26,316 nucleotides of DNA from a virus. Positions 743 to 5,774 of this stretch are shown in pieces. Under the pieces are notes generated by a model, which was not told where the DNA came from, did not search any database, and saw only the letters and a list, made by a program, of their open reading frames with translations. The stretch covers positions 1 through 26,316 of the IMG/VR virus record IMGVR_UViG_3300040806_000036; one strand, given 5' to 3'. The translations under genes were made by a program, and so were the position numbers. Numbering within the stretch: the stretch's first letter is position 1; each line of letters starts with the position of its first letter.

Positions 743-873
743 TACTTTTTTCCTTTCGGCTTATAGCCTGATGCGTAGATTGCCTTGCCCTGCCGCTCGG
801 CAGCAGCTTTAGTTTTGTAAACCTTACCAGATTTACCCCACTTGTAACCGCCCTTAACCTTGTGAACTGGCAT
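742..873 (-). CDS. Small basic protein, 43 aa
   Basis: A 43-residue protein beginning MPVHKVKGGYKWGKSGKVY and ending KAIYASGYKPKGKK. Tiny proteins of this pattern (Lys/Gly/Tyr-rich, with GYKWGKSGKVY followed by an AIYASGY tail) are familiar from phages of many hosts; their function is unknown. Its start lies 20 bases inside the end of the M15 peptidase gene and its stop overlaps the next ATG by one base. No signal peptide or membrane segment is visible. Confidence 0.75.
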   Translation of the reverse strand: MPVHKVKGGYKWGKSGKVYKTKAAAERQGKAIYASGYKPKGKK

Positions 874-1396
874 ATTTACCATCCCATCGCTTTTTCAAGC
901 CGTTATCAATATGAACGTGCCGCTCGTACAAACCGACCCCACCATCAAAGTCGTGTAGGTACTGAGCAACCTTTGCCGGACTAACGCCCCTTACTACAAA
1001 GTCGATTGCCTGCCCTGTTGTATGCAGGCTTCCATCCACACCACCGACCTCTTGGTTGCGTTTGTCACAGCGGAACCCACTCGTGACCACCACATCGCGT
1101 TGGAAGTTGTCTTGTATTCTGTCGAGCATGGTAACAAGTCTTGGGGTATACATCACTTCCCCACAACCACACCGACAAGTAAAATCCGATACCTTGAAAT
1201 TCTTGCCGACCTTTATGTCAAGCATCTCAAAGTTGTCACCTTTTGTTTGCATATTATGACCCCCGATTGGTATGCAAATAGGAACTGAGTTTAATGAGCA
1301 ATCGTCATCGCTATTCACGGGCGAGCCTACCCAATCCTGTATCGTTGAGCATCCTTGCAGCAATAACATTACTGCTATTGGAATGGCTCGTAACAC
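854..1396 (-). CDS. M15-family peptidoglycan peptidase (endolysin) with lipoprotein signal
   Basis: A 180-residue zinc peptidase of the M15 family, expected to cut peptide bonds in peptidoglycan at lysis. Residues 56-175 form the catalytic domain: H125-x6-D132 in LHTTGQAID, then E158-R-H160-V-H162-I-D in YERHVHID, which is the usual zinc and catalytic set. I chose GTG at 1396 because it overlaps the TAG of the gene before it by one base and follows AGGA by 8 bases. The frame is open to 1450, but that would bury the signal. With this start the protein opens with a short hydrophobic stretch and the lipobox LLQGC (Cys16) followed by Ser17, which favours sorting to the outer membrane. C74, C76 and C78 (in CRCGCG) are also present. 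Confidence 0.85.
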   Translation of the reverse strand: MLRAIPIAVMLLLQGCSTIQDWVGSPVNSDDDCSLNSVPICIPIGGHNMQTKGDNFEMLDIKVGKNFKVSDFTCRCGCGEVMYTPRLVTMLDRIQDNFQRDVVVTSGFRCDKRNQEVGGVDGSLHTTGQAIDFVVRGVSPAKVAQYLHDFDGGVGLYERHVHIDNGLKKRWDGKYASSQG

Positions 1397-1848
1397 TATG
1401 ATTTTCCTAGATAAAATGATCCTGCTGCAAGTATGGATGTCTTGAGCCACTCGAAATGAACAATAGCATTTTCTAAGCGAACAAACTCAGTCGTTGTTCC
1501 GGTAGTGTCGATCAGCCCCAAGAAGTTAAATCCAGTTTCCTTCTCAATAGGAATAACAATATCGAGTCCAGTCAATGATCCTGTCATTGCCCATACACCA
1601 AGACCTATCATCGACAACACAAAGATTCTTCGCGTCATTTTCGCAAACGGATCGTTACCCACACGAGCCGCAGCAGCGTCAGCAGCTTTGGTTGCTCGCA
1701 TTGAGTCAGCATCGGCTTGTTCGGTCTTAGCCTTCATCGCCTCGATCATTAGCTTCTGCTGTTCGCGCTTAGCTTCAGCAGCCTTATCCATCATTTTAAA
1801 AACGTGTCCGAGGACAGCTCCACCGCCCATCGCCGCCAATTCCATCAT
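1396..1848 (-). CDS. Membrane protein with helical N-terminus, holin candidate, 150 aa
   Basis: A 150-residue protein with a charged, probably coiled-coil region at about residues 18-62 (rich in Ala, Lys, Glu), a hydrophobic segment at about 74-98 (starting IFVLSMIGLGVWAM) and a second near the C-terminus (about 134-148). This layout resembles phage holin or holin-like proteins such as the GTA_holin_3TM group, but the match is one of shape, not a clear motif. It starts ATG-ATG with a four-base overlap on the EF-hand gene, and its stop overlaps the GTG of the M15 peptidase. The position directly ahead of the endolysin supports a lysis role. Confidence 0.7.
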   Translation of the reverse strand: MMELAAMGGGAVLGHVFKMMDKAAEAKREQQKLMIEAMKAKTEQADADSMRATKAADAAAARVGNDPFAKMTRRIFVLSMIGLGVWAMTGSLTGLDIVIPIEKETGFNFLGLIDTTGTTTEFVRLENAIVHFEWLKTSILAAGSFYLGKS

Positions 1849-2159
1849 TTCTGATCACCTTTTTTCATAGAAGAAAAGCCAAAGTACGAGGCAACGATTG
1901 CCGCGATACTAACGTAATAAATATTGCTCATCTGAGCTAAGAGGTCACTAGCTCGTACAAGACCCAAAGACTCAGTAGCCACAACAGAAAAAGGAAACAA
2001 GAGCATACCGCTGAGAGAAAACCACGACATGGTTCGCATCGCGTCACGTCTTGCGTCTTCGTCTTCCATTTCTCGTCTGAGCTTTTCAATGTAAATCTCG
2101 TGTTCAGCTTCAGTAACGATGCCGTCACCGTCTAAATCTGCCTTGCCTAAATCACTCAT
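1845..2159 (-). CDS. EF-hand membrane protein, 104 aa
   Basis: A 104-residue protein whose N-terminus holds a single canonical EF-hand loop, D8-L-D10-G-D12-G-I14-V-T16-E-A-E19, expected to bind calcium. A charged helix follows (about 20-42), then two hydrophobic segments at about 45-68 and 80-98. The EF-hand should face the cytoplasm if the N-terminus stays inside. It lies between a coiled-coil membrane protein and the holin candidate, overlapping the latter by four bases. The function is not known; a calcium-sensitive lysis or membrane protein is speculation. Confidence 0.75.
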   Translation of the reverse strand: MSDLGKADLDGDGIVTEAEHEIYIEKLRREMEDEDARRDAMRTMSWFSLSGMLLFPFSVVATESLGLVRASDLLAQMSNIYYVSIAAIVASYFGFSSMKKGDQK

Positions 2160-2160
2160 G

Positions 2161-2595
2161 CTAATTTGCCAATGGATTATCTAGTGCCTTCTGGATGCGC
2201 TCTTCAAGCTCGGCTTTTGTTTCCTCAACCTTGCCTTCAAACTTGTCCATCTTGCCTTCAAAATAAACGACCTTATCGTTCACCCGTTTTTCAATATCAT
2301 AGGTTAACTGCTTGTTATCGCGTAAGTTTCCTTCGATTGATTGTAGCAGCTTTTCCTGATTATCAATCTTATGATCGATCAACTCCATTCTTTGCTCGAA
2401 CGCGCCAATATCGAGGGATGCGATTTCCTCGATCCTTTGGTACATAACGAAACCACCATAAAGACTACCAACAATGGTGCTAACAAGACCGAGAGCAAGC
2501 CCAAGCTGAGTAGGAGTAAAGCGTAAGCCAAGAATGCTGAGGCGTTTGTCAGCCAAGCCTTCAATATCGTCAAGTTTTTCACCTAAATCTGCCAT
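2161..2595 (-). CDS. Membrane-anchored coiled-coil protein, 144 aa
   Basis: A 144-residue protein with a cytoplasm-like N-terminus, one hydrophobic segment at about residues 26-51 (PTQLGLALGLVSTIVGSLYG) and a long charged, heptad-like helix from about 60 to 140. The layout resembles an inner-membrane spanin (Rz-like) or a holin accessory protein, but no diagnostic motif is visible. Its ATG overlaps the stop of the 143-aa exported protein by one base (TGATG). It sits in the lysis block, one base before the EF-hand gene. Confidence 0.7.
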   Translation of the reverse strand: MADLGEKLDDIEGLADKRLSILGLRFTPTQLGLALGLVSTIVGSLYGGFVMYQRIEEIASLDIGAFEQRMELIDHKIDNQEKLLQSIEGNLRDNKQLTYDIEKRVNDKVVYFEGKMDKFEGKVEETKAELEERIQKALDNPLAN

Positions 2596-3026
2596 CAGTT
2601 ATCAAACCCTTTCTGAAGCTTACGCAGATTATTCAGCTCCTGTTGCAGCTTTTCTAGCTCAAGACGCTTACGTTGCAACTCAAGGTTATACAAAGATGTG
2701 CAATCAAGCCTACGCTTTGGAGCATCCAGTGGAATGATGATGCGGGCGTACAAACCCAAATCTTTGGTCTGTGGGTTCATTGGGTCTTCTGACTCGAACG
2801 GGCTAACTGCGTTATTCACGATACCTGTCACGCCTAGCTCTAGGTTAGTCGCCCCACCGATAGCCGACTGACACTCCATATCGCCTGCACGAACGCGATC
2901 TGAGCCATAGCTTTGTCCCATGCTAGGTAACTGCATATTCAGCGAGCTGTTATCAGCAATCGCTTTAGCCGATCCGATAATGATCAGCAGATACCACCCA
3001 ACAATGATTAACGTATTTTTGAGCAT
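2595..3026 (-). CDS. Exported protein with C-terminal coiled coil, 143 aa
   Basis: A 143-residue protein with a typical Sec signal (hydrophobic core TLIIVGWYLLIIIGSAKA) and likely cleavage after AKA near residue 22. The mature part has a beta-rich centre containing LGLYARIIIPLDAPKRRLDC and ends in a Leu/Lys/Glu-rich helix (about 110-140). Two cysteines (about 52 and 109) could form a disulfide. I do not recognise the family. The gene overlaps the end of the 124-aa exported gene by 19 bases, so the two are probably translated together. A spanin-like role is conceivable because of the coiled coil. Confidence 0.7.
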   Translation of the reverse strand: MLKNTLIIVGWYLLIIIGSAKAIADNSSLNMQLPSMGQSYGSDRVRAGDMECQSAIGGATNLELGVTGIVNNAVSPFESEDPMNPQTKDLGLYARIIIPLDAPKRRLDCTSLYNLELQRKRLELEKLQQELNNLRKLQKGFDN

Positions 3027-3382
3027 ATCTTTGAGGATAGCAGCGTGACTGTCCCTTCACCTTTTAGCTTAGACCGTGAACAAATGTATTGTGCGCGAGG
3101 CACATCGTCAGAGTTAATGTAAATGTCAAATTTCAGGCGTTGCAGGTATTTGACGTGGGCTATCTTGTACTGGCTCACAAACGGCACTGGATCGCCTTTC
3201 TTGTCCGTTACGGATATTTCGTAATACTCAACGTCCTGTCGTTTGTTAAGGATCGTCATTTGCGTCTTTACGACACCCTGAACGTGCGACACATACCACT
3301 CAGGATATGTCGGGGTCATCTCATGTGCTACAACAGATGTAGCGATTGCTACAAGAAATGTAGCGACTATTGCGCGATACAT
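3008..3382 (-). CDS. Small exported protein, chaperone-like Ig domain possible, 124 aa
   Basis: A 124-residue protein with a Sec signal (IVATFLVAIATSVVA, cleavage near AHE at about 19-20). The mature part is beta-rich: TQMTILNKRQDVEYYEISVT then GDPVPF, then a basic strand region and YICSRSK. The order of strands and the GxPVPF turn resemble the first Ig-like domain of PapD-type pilus chaperones, but a second domain is absent, so this is a suggestion rather than an assignment. Two cysteines near the C-terminus (in YICSRS and KICSKI) may pair. It overlaps the end of the pilin-like gene by 16 bases. Confidence 0.65.
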   Translation of the reverse strand: MYRAIVATFLVAIATSVVAHEMTPTYPEWYVSHVQGVVKTQMTILNKRQDVEYYEISVTDKKGDPVPFVSQYKIAHVKYLQRLKFDIYINSDDVPRAQYICSRSKLKGEGTVTLLSSKICSKIR

Positions 3383-3864
3383 TCCGCTTCAACCACCGCA
3401 CGGTAAGTACCCGATGGGAAGGCGCGATTGCCGCCGTTAGTTGCCTCAGACTCCACCTTGAACCAAGTCGATCCAGTAGCCGTCAACGCATACTCGCGTG
3501 TCTGGTCATAGGTGATCGAGTCAGTCTGGTAGTCAGCCATTGCCACATCACCAACAGACGACACATCAACAGACCCCGTAAAGGTCACTGTGTCATTCAA
3601 GTTTGGGCTTTGCGAGAAGCTAGTCGGGTAAGTGATTCGAGCGTTGTAAGCATCTGCTAACGACACGTCATAACGCACGATAGGCAGAACGCCGCCATCA
3701 GCAGGAGCAGTTGATAGGGTATAGGCATTTGGGTTTCCGTAGACACCGGCAGTGTCAGTTTGAATGATACAGCGCGATTCAACCGTGCCGGTAATTGGCA
3801 CCTCTATAGCTATGGCACTGCCAGAAAGCAGACACATTGCCGTCATTATTTTGACACTATTCAT
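3367..3864 (-). CDS. Exported beta-rich protein, pilin/spore-coat-U-like, 165 aa
   Basis: A 165-residue protein with a Sec signal (residues 1-20, ending SAIA-IE) and a beta-rich mature part. Only two mature cysteines are present, C32 (VESRC) near the start and C162 (VEAEC) at the end, and a late FPSGTYRAVVEAE strand resembles the last strand of fimbrial or spore-coat-U-like subunits. It has a strong Shine-Dalgarno (AGGAG, six-base spacer). The possible chaperone gene directly follows with overlap. The pilin-like call is by fold pattern only; it could instead be an unrelated periplasmic jelly-roll protein. Confidence 0.65.
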   Translation of the reverse strand: MNSVKIMTAMCLLSGSAIAIEVPITGTVESRCIIQTDTAGVYGNPNAYTLSTAPADGGVLPIVRYDVSLADAYNARITYPTSFSQSPNLNDTVTFTGSVDVSSVGDVAMADYQTDSITYDQTREYALTATGSTWFKVESEATNGGNRAFPSGTYRAVVEAECIAQ

Positions 3865-3866
3865 GG

Positions 3867-4724
3867 TTATCTCCTATATTGTTGATCAACCATCTGTTTG
3901 TGAAGCACCTGCTGTGCCAAGTTTCTAAACGCTCGTCTATTATCCGGTATATTTTTGTCTTGTAAAACAACGGTTTCCTGATATTTTCCGCCCTGTAACA
4001 CGGCTGCATAATATCCGTTGAGGTTAGTAGCAGTGTTCATTGCCTTTAGCAGCGCGTTCTGTGACATACCAAAACCTAGCGTCAAAGCGTTCTCAGAAGC
4101 CGCCAGAGCTGTTTCTAGGCGTTCTTTGTCCTCATCCTCGTCCTTGTATACCTTTTCCTCGTTATCGTCCTCTATCAGGCTTAAATCGGTTGGTTCTAGC
4201 GATTGTTGGACGTAACTGTCACTAAGGGCATCGTAAACATCGTAGACAGGAAGCTCGGGGATTTCTTGTTGCTGCACGACATTAAGGTCGCGGCGGAAAG
4301 TGTACACAACAGTAGGATTCTCAATCGCACCTATTCCCACCTCAGCAATGCTTCCCTCGCCCCAGTTTCCCAACGGACTATATGGCACTGGCACGAATCG
4401 GGTGAGAGTCGTACCACTTTTACCCGACCAATCATCTGTCGACCGGAATATAAATCCATTTCCATCGGCAGCTTCATTCTGGATACTGACGGTATAGGGA
4501 TCGGCTCGATCTTTGACGGCTGTGTACTGGTAGATGACTCCGTTGATGTCAACTCCTTGAACTGTAGGTACAGAAAATAGAGAGCTAGACATCCCCCAAG
4601 AGCTACCCCCAGAAGCAGCGTTACTACTGTATCCAAACTCATAATCAGAATAAGAGGGCTGCGCCAAACACGCCGCCGATAATGCCAAGAGCTTGGTTAC
4701 GTTTTTCTTCAGCCGTAGGTTCAT
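3867..4724 (-). CDS. Exported protein of unknown function, 285 aa
   Basis: A 285-residue protein with a basic N-terminus and Sec signal (LLALSAACLAQPSYS, cleavage near residue 26). It has a beta-rich first half (GVIYQYTAV, NPTVVYTF), an acidic linker (DDNEEKVYKDEDEDKERLE at about 186-205) and a helical C-terminus. The start lies 80 bases inside the gene before it but has an excellent Shine-Dalgarno, GAGGGAG with a six to seven base spacer, which supports the long overlap. I do not recognise the family. It is the largest member of the exported-protein block and likely acts in the periplasm. Confidence 0.7.
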   Translation of the reverse strand: MNLRLKKNVTKLLALSAACLAQPSYSDYEFGYSSNAASGGSSWGMSSSLFSVPTVQGVDINGVIYQYTAVKDRADPYTVSIQNEAADGNGFIFRSTDDWSGKSGTTLTRFVPVPYSPLGNWGEGSIAEVGIGAIENPTVVYTFRRDLNVVQQQEIPELPVYDVYDALSDSYVQQSLEPTDLSLIEDDNEEKVYKDEDEDKERLETALAASENALTLGFGMSQNALLKAMNTATNLNGYYAAVLQGGKYQETVVLQDKNIPDNRRAFRNLAQQVLHKQMVDQQYRR

Positions 4725-5223
4725 CTACTTCTCCCTCTACTGGTTGCTTGCTTTCATGGACTTGCCAAGCTGCTTTTGCTGCATCACCAATAAGACCGTC
4801 ATACGGACAGGGTGTGCCTGCGTTCATCATGGCATCAAAGACCTTTTTGTCTTGGCACATGACACTAACTGCGGCGACTTTCATGCCCATGTCGTACAGC
4901 GTTTTGGCGTTCTTTAGTCGAATACAGTTTTCTTCGGTAAAGGTTGACCCAATCGAGATGCCGAGAATTTGGGTCTGCACCGCGCCAGTTGCACCAATAG
5001 TGCATAAGTCCGAATTATTCCCACTGGAAAACTGAGGCGCGATGGCAGATGGGGGTGGTGATTTGACTGTGGTGGTCTGGCTTCCGTTAGTGGTAACGGT
5101 TGATGTGGATTCCGTAACGATAGGTTCAGCTATTGCCTGCTCAGCGACTGTGATTAAAGCAACGATTGCACCACCTGTTAGCAGCGATACAACAAAGTAT
5201 AAGATTCTGTCGACCCAAGACAT
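4645..5223 (-). CDS. Membrane or exported protein of a marine-phage-type family, 192 aa
   Basis: A 192-residue protein with a hydrophobic N-terminal segment (about 7-32, an uncleaved anchor or a signal), a Ser/Thr-rich stretch, then a compact region with CTIGATGAVQTQI, LKNAKTLYDMGMKVAAVSVM and GTPCPYDGLIGD, and a hydrophobic C-terminus (about 177-192). The TLYDMGMKVAAV and TPCPYDG motifs are ones I recall from unannotated marine phage proteins, usually near lysis or structural genes. Four cysteines in the central region may form disulfides in the periplasm. No function can be assigned. The 285-aa gene begins inside its end. Confidence 0.7.
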   Translation of the reverse strand: MSWVDRILYFVVSLLTGGAIVALITVAEQAIAEPIVTESTSTVTTNGSQTTTVKSPPPSAIAPQFSSGNNSDLCTIGATGAVQTQILGISIGSTFTEENCIRLKNAKTLYDMGMKVAAVSVMCQDKKVFDAMMNAGTPCPYDGLIGDAAKAAWQVHESKQPVEGEVDEPTAEEKRNQALGIIGGVFGAALLF

Positions 5224-5745: not shown

Positions 5746-5774
5746 AAATGAAAAGGGGTAGCCGAAGCTACCCC
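5746..5774 (-). terminator. Rho-independent terminator after the major capsid gene
   Basis: The minus-strand transcript forms GGGGUAGC-UUCG-GCUACCCC, a perfect eight-pair stem (5774-5767 with 5762-5755) closed by a stable UUCG tetraloop, followed by TTTTCATTT. It lies 23 bases beyond the capsid stop. As downstream genes have no visible promoter of their own, it probably acts as a partial terminator that keeps capsid mRNA high and downstream expression lower. Confidence 0.85.

Follow-up and report, generated by a model that had tools for sequence, protein, structure and literature searches.

An exported six-gene cassette with predicted PapD-like and pilin-like folds beside the lysis genes of marine phages

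Why does a phage carry a row of exported proteins between its capsid and its lysis genes? The question is raised by IMG/VR virus record IMGVR_UViG_3300040806_000036, of which we analyzed positions 1 to 26,316 (26.3 kb, hereafter the window), a podovirus-like late region on the minus strand that comprises a series of tail-region open reading frames (ORFs), portal, scaffold, an SU10-family capsid gene, the cassette in question and a lysis-like block. The initial annotation of this DNA had described five consecutive genes for exported or membrane proteins, and five consecutive minus-strand ORFs encoding 192, 285, 165, 124 and 143 amino acids are indeed present (here g192, g285, g165, g124 and g143; coordinates in Table 1). 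As had been stated, they lie between capsid and lysis genes, with the SU10-type major capsid gene (PF17236, 1.9e-85 in a Pfam search) on one side and a holin-like/M15 peptidase block on the other. The natural unit comprises six genes, as g144, encoding a transmembrane and coiled-coil protein, directly follows the five genes in 107 of the 111 loci that carry all five. We consider it likely that these genes constitute an usher-less chaperone/pilin-like envelope cassette.

In the order g192 to g143, the first two genes overlap by 80 nt, g285 and g165 are 2 nt apart, and g124 overlaps g165 by 16 nt and g143 by 19 nt, with 1 nt to g144. These overlaps and the tight spacing, together with the conserved gene order described below, support the proposed co-translated unit of exported or membrane proteins. 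The Sec signal or anchor ascribed to each of the five proteins is borne out: each has a hydrophobic stretch at its N-terminus (hydropathy maxima 1.87-2.88) with a cleavage-like site behind it, and no examined gene from the capsid gene across the other 20 kb of the window reaches a hydropathy of 1.8. A cut of 2.0 is passed by 79-96% of the members of each cassette family, compared with 0% of the capsid and g97 homologues. Paired cysteines, likewise ascribed to all five proteins, are found in g192, which has four invariant cysteines in its family alignment, and in g165, g124 and g143 with two each, but not in g285, whose single cysteine (C19) lies within the signal peptide; relatives of g285 carry a pair in the motif C..DPQSDPNCPGY, which the window copy has lost. 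That the proteins belong to the virion or are ejected from it, rather than residing in the envelope, could be argued from the capsid gene adjoining the cassette in the window. We regard this as highly improbable in view of the signal peptides in 79-96% of the members, the conserved cysteine pairs in four of the five proteins and the position of the cassette relative to the capsid genes, which varies among phages. The two structure models made (g124 and g165) also speak against cytoplasmic or virion proteins, as both are predicted to be exported immunoglobulin (Ig) folds.

Whether the genes occur together in related phages had been named beforehand as a test of the cluster. Loci were collected from scans of viral contigs with g285, with g143 and with the g192-family alignment, and 143 loci, few of them from annotated records, entered the neighbourhood analysis. 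The complete set of five was found in 111 of these, and order and strand are identical in every one of the 111 (106 distinct), by which a chance cluster is rejected. Most loci without all five genes lie at contig ends or belong to distant phages. The g192-family scan was not selected for the g165-g124-g143 trio, and its best 80 loci show the gene set as far as the contigs reach. Moreover, the six cassette genes diverge in step, as their pairwise identity matrices correlate with r 0.55-0.81. None of the six proteins contains a hypervariable block, and the suggestion that the cassette changes the receptor thus finds no specific support.

The description of the cluster as inserted proved an understatement, since the cassette is widespread and modular. 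Among 50 records searched, the SU10 capsid family occurs in only five, and other cassette phages encode another type of major head protein (phrog_1357) or a portal of siphovirus type (phrog_12); the capsid families PF13252 and PF07068 gave no matches anywhere, controls included, and are thus uninformative. The cassette is a modular unit spread over phages with different capsid backbones. Its parts also occur separately. The core of g192, g285 and g144 (P1, P2 and P3) is found without the trio in the pelagiphages and roseophages HTVC115P, HTVC202P, HTVC033P, HTVC023P, Baldr, Mosig and CRP-207, in the form of g192, a long P2-like protein and a transmembrane coiled coil ending in NPL, where the homology of P2 rests on position and general architecture. 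Conversely, the trio occurs without the core in the cultured Vibrio phages K450, D93 and K248 and the T5-like Ceto and VPG01, with homology supported by profile-profile comparison (g165, E 8.8e-12; g124, E 8.5e-9), and comes after two large tail-fibre-like genes. A genome scan with g143 yielded no more than four loci, each from a metagenome bin (three in one Rhodobacteraceae bin and one in a Bacteroidetes bin), which are probably viral contigs. A tiny lipoprotein is encoded 3' of the trio in the Vibrio phages (L154 12649-12852, L156 9694-9852 and L155 9655-9822); its mature start, CT(F/I)NF(T/Q)IDTDYA, shows alternating hydrophobic residues.

Sequence comparison gave little indication of function. 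Pfam, PHROGs and PDB sequence searches with single sequences and alignments returned no informative family for the five proteins, and the annotated cassette members encountered are almost all "hypothetical". The matches of g192 to phrog_20531 (1.2e-16), g165 to phrog_25895 and g143 to phrog_37374 range from weak to clear and supply names only, no role, all three families being annotated as of unknown function. For g285, the Pfam and PDB sequence searches gave no match and comparison with fimbrial subunits by hhalign found nothing; neither g285 nor g165 had a tblastn match in phage records, and a BFVD search with g165 returned no named relative.

The clearest structural assignment was obtained for g124. 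The AlphaFold2 model, built from an alignment of 30 relatives, has a predicted local distance difference test score (pLDDT) of 87.9 and arranges its strands as A-B-C-D-E-(helix)-F-G, the order of the PapD N-domain. Its top Foldseek matches are chaperones (SafB 3.4e-5, FimC 1.1e-4, also DraB and FaeE; 3e-5 to 2e-4), and VIA-align superimposes residues 19-124 onto FimC 1-114, the whole N-domain, with Z 10-11 (FimC, 10.9). Since MSP domains and the CsxA Ig domain score as high as FimC in this comparison, the fold is PapD-like but not uniquely that of a pilus chaperone. We thus predict that g124 is a single PapD-like Ig fold of the pilus chaperone N-domain type. Whereas PapD-like pilus chaperones possess two domains (PapD_N and PapD_C), g124 has one, its mature protein measuring ~105 amino acids, and Pfam searches gave no sequence match to PapD_N (PF00345). 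In an end-to-end register on FimC, which is approximate and not a residue-level alignment, Lys122 falls on Lys112 and Tyr26 on Arg8. Among the features listed for the FGL chaperone class is a disulfide that joins strands F1 and G1 (PMC4133393). The invariant Cys101 and Cys120 of g124 similarly lie in strands F and G, a likeness of position only, taken from the model. Unlike FGL chaperones, with an FG loop of about 24 residues and an N-terminal extension of 12-14 residues, g124 has an FG loop of ~12 residues (106-117), and its strand A begins at residue 20 directly after the signal peptide, with no FGL-type extension.

The neighbouring gene g165 was modelled with a pLDDT of 88.8. Foldseek ranks 1-11 in the PDB are chaperone-usher pilins (CfaB, the pilin domain of PapG, FimF/FimG) with a best E of 2e-3 and template modeling (TM) scores of 0.4-0.5; such pilins are defined by an Ig-like fold that lacks strand G. 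VIA-align returned generic Ig-like matches only, with MSCRAMM and integrin Ig domains first (Z <= 7.6), and the pilin assignment therefore leans on the neighbouring chaperone-like gene. A pair of pilin-like and chaperone-like proteins might suggest a true pilus-like polymer, that is, a surface fibre or adhesive appendage on infected cells. This appears very improbable to us: the usher family PF00577 exceeded the cut-off in none of 50 records, which include one complete Vibrio phage and many contigs that are fragments, and g165 has no N-terminal extension with which it could act as its own donor. While chaperone-usher pilins polymerise through such an extension, which serves as donor strand, the predicted mature N-terminus of g165 lies 1-6 residues ahead of strand A in the members scored. 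A lipobox is present in 11 of 107 g165 homologues.

A strand of suitable character may instead be offered by g143. After the signal peptide, 89 of 100 distinct members begin with the pattern S-phi-x-phi-x-phi-P, the three phi positions being hydrophobic in 86 to 89 of them, and we hypothesize from this sequence that the alternating-hydrophobic N-terminus resembles a donor strand.

The remaining proteins form the core. Relatives of g192 are encoded by at least 579 IMG/VR stretches, and a 28-member alignment places the four invariant cysteines of its conserved domain at 74, 100, 123 and 139. Its overlap with g285 keeps one fixed relative frame in 116 of 116 loci, and the g192 stop precedes the conserved Gly31 of g285 by a median of 3.7 codons (interquartile range 3.7-4.7); therefore, the g192 tail and the g285 signal peptide share the same ~75 bases. 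Distant relatives of g192 (L024 5278-6504; L147 3464-4378) contain long Asn/Thr- or Gly/Asn/Gln-rich repeats ahead of the conserved domain, whose composition recalls curlin-like repeats. A relative of g285 (L022 3-1766) similarly carries many CxxDPLYDxxCxGYxxAYxxQQ repeats ahead of the conserved C-terminal motif. The P2 proteins of distant phages (L022-L024, L057-L060) have the same position and partly the same C-terminal motif, while their N-terminal domains differ, and one distant P2, HTVC033P gp45, is annotated as carbohydrate binding.

The third core protein, g144, possesses a predicted periplasmic coiled coil of ~90 residues behind its transmembrane segment, and its pelagiphage relatives end in NPL. 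It resembles the Rz/Rz1 spanins in combining an inner-membrane anchor with a periplasmic coiled coil and in being encoded upstream of holin and endolysin. This topology and the lysis-side position could mean that g144 serves as inner-membrane spanin with an exported partner at the outer membrane, in an alternative spanin system, and spanin families went unrecognized in most cassette contigs. Yet g144 gave no spanin family match in the PHROGs search, the cassette comprises six genes and adjoining genes of verified Rz-like i- and o-spanin families were found in 9 of 49 cassette contigs, so that some of the same phages have a separate true Rz-like pair. We thus deem an alternative spanin system quite unlikely, and the notion that the cassette is simply the spanin was rejected on account of the coexisting pair.

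Table 1. Features of the cassette and its surroundings in the window
Feature	Coordinates	Strand	Description
g192 (P1)	4645..5223	-	signal/anchor, T/S/N-rich linker, PPPSAIAP, conserved domain, hydrophobic C-terminal tail (28-member alignment)
g192/g285 double-coded segment	4645..4724	-	g192 hydrophobic tail and g285 signal peptide in different frames
g285 (P2)	3867..4724	-	signal peptide, conserved N-terminal domain, acidic linker, C-terminal motif DN-RR-FR-LHKQMVDQQY
g165	3367..3864	-	exported; predicted pilin-like Ig-type beta sandwich; Cys32 and Cys162 invariant
g124	3008..3382	-	exported; predicted single PapD-like N-domain; Cys101 in strand F, Cys120 in strand G
g143	2595..3026	-	exported; S-phi-x-phi-x-phi-P mature N-terminus, Cys52/Cys109 domain, C-terminal helix-like segment
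g144 (P3)	2161..2595	-	single transmembrane segment, then periplasmic coiled coil ending DNPLAN
g104	1845..2159	-	neighbour; two transmembrane segments, EF-hand-like N-terminus; holin-like by architecture only
g150	1396..1848	-	neighbour; weak GTA_holin_3TM match (PF11351, E 0.0033, below cut-off)
M15 peptidase, endolysin candidate	854..1396	-	neighbour; PF08291, 3.3e-20; lipobox LLLQGC
Terminator-like stem	5755..5774	-	strong stem GGGGTAGCTTCGGCTACCCC and T-run directly 3' of capsid gene

Taken together, we propose that, late in infection, the products of the five genes and of g144 come together as a multi-protein assembly within the Gram-negative envelope. In this proposal, g124 would fold or cap g165 in the periplasm through strand complementation, g143 and g285 would join to complete the complex, either in the periplasm or at the outer membrane, and the inner-membrane-anchored g192 and the coiled coil of g144 would tie this complex to the inner membrane. 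Given the location of the cassette at the head of the lysis block, the assembly would most likely prepare or disrupt the outer envelope layers around lysis, beside holin, endolysin and spanin. Recognized lysis genes within 4 kb were found downstream in 35 of 65 loci and upstream in 4 of 63, counts that were seeded from families seen in the analyzed loci and hence represent a lower bound biased to those families. Remodelling of the envelope at lysis, one of the roles suggested in the initial annotation, would fit this position. Downstream of the trio, both Ceto and VPG01 encode a holin and an M15 peptidase, and in pelagiphage HTVC023P the P3 gene overlaps that of an M15 peptidase. The cassette anatomy in combination with a lysis-stage role is put forward tentatively, and with clearly less confidence than the anatomy by itself. 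More speculative still, and in our estimation rather improbable in its full form, is an usher-independent phage donor-strand pathway in which g124 delivers g165, the N-terminus of g143 fills the g165 groove, and P2 with the anchored P1 and P3 spans the periplasm and triggers or aids envelope rupture.

Several observations weigh against our proposal. The pilin assignment of g165 is moderate, given its Foldseek values and the preference of VIA-align for other Ig domains, and direct hhalign comparison of g124 and g165 with bacterial chaperones and pilins was not significant, the sets being small and the alignments shallow. The core is carried alone by pelagiphages and the trio alone by Vibrio phages, so the two may act separately. 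The adjacency to lysis genes may reflect late expression alone, and the need for a further lysis factor is not obvious since the Rz-like spanin pair is present in 9 of 49 cassette contigs.

The main rival to a lysis role is superinfection exclusion, which the initial annotation had also suggested, or anti-readsorption, whereby an outer-membrane assembly would mask or block the receptor and so shield the infected cell or keep progeny off debris. The outer-membrane proteins T5 Llp and Cor mediate superinfection exclusion and are single and small. The cassette proteins resemble them in being exported, sometimes lipidated (lipobox in 11 of 107 g165 homologues) and encoded by late or tail-fibre-adjacent phage genes, a likeness by description. 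The Vibrio trio adjoining two large tail-fibre-like genes is consistent with exclusion, as is the N-terminal region of pelagiphage P2, which resembles a carbohydrate-binding module by annotation and by a PF02018 match below the cut-off (E 0.02). However, five or six proteins far exceed known exclusion factors, a hypervariable, receptor-like block is missing, the same families occur in phages of very different hosts, and the position is late and on the lysis side. We therefore judge exclusion unlikely, albeit the foremost competitor of the envelope role around lysis. As homologues occur in isolates (Vibrio phages Ceto and VPG01, pelagiphages and roseophages), a role in lysis or exclusion is directly testable.

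The surroundings of the cassette were inspected as well. The terminator-like stem GGGGTAGCTTCGGCTACCCC sets the capsid gene apart from the cassette. On the lysis side, homologues of g104 are present in 56 loci of the neighbourhood analysis. The M15 peptidase reads as a lipoprotein, a form unusual for an endolysin, and may perhaps be an endolysin with an outer-membrane anchor. Downstream of its gene, several small ORFs encoding basic or Cys-containing proteins occupy positions 163-742.

A fixed row of genes in many unrelated marine phages suggests an undescribed machine that is built in the bacterial envelope late in infection. A literature search, incomplete in its coverage, found no description of phage-encoded PapD-like or chaperone-usher proteins, nor of the cassette, and we know of no earlier phage-encoded relative of the chaperone-pilin principle. 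Should the cassette prove to be an envelope machine assisted by a chaperone, it would be the first such relative, and one working without the usher thought necessary. Like the chaperone-usher pathway of PapD, FimC and Caf1M, the cassette has two neighbouring genes whose exported products are predicted to be a PapD-N-like domain and a pilin-like Ig subunit. In contrast to that pathway, the putative chaperone has one domain with a tyrosine at the Arg8 position in the end-to-end register, g165 carries its cysteines in the first and last strands, no usher was found, sequence-level matches to the bacterial families are lacking, and the whole system is encoded by phages.

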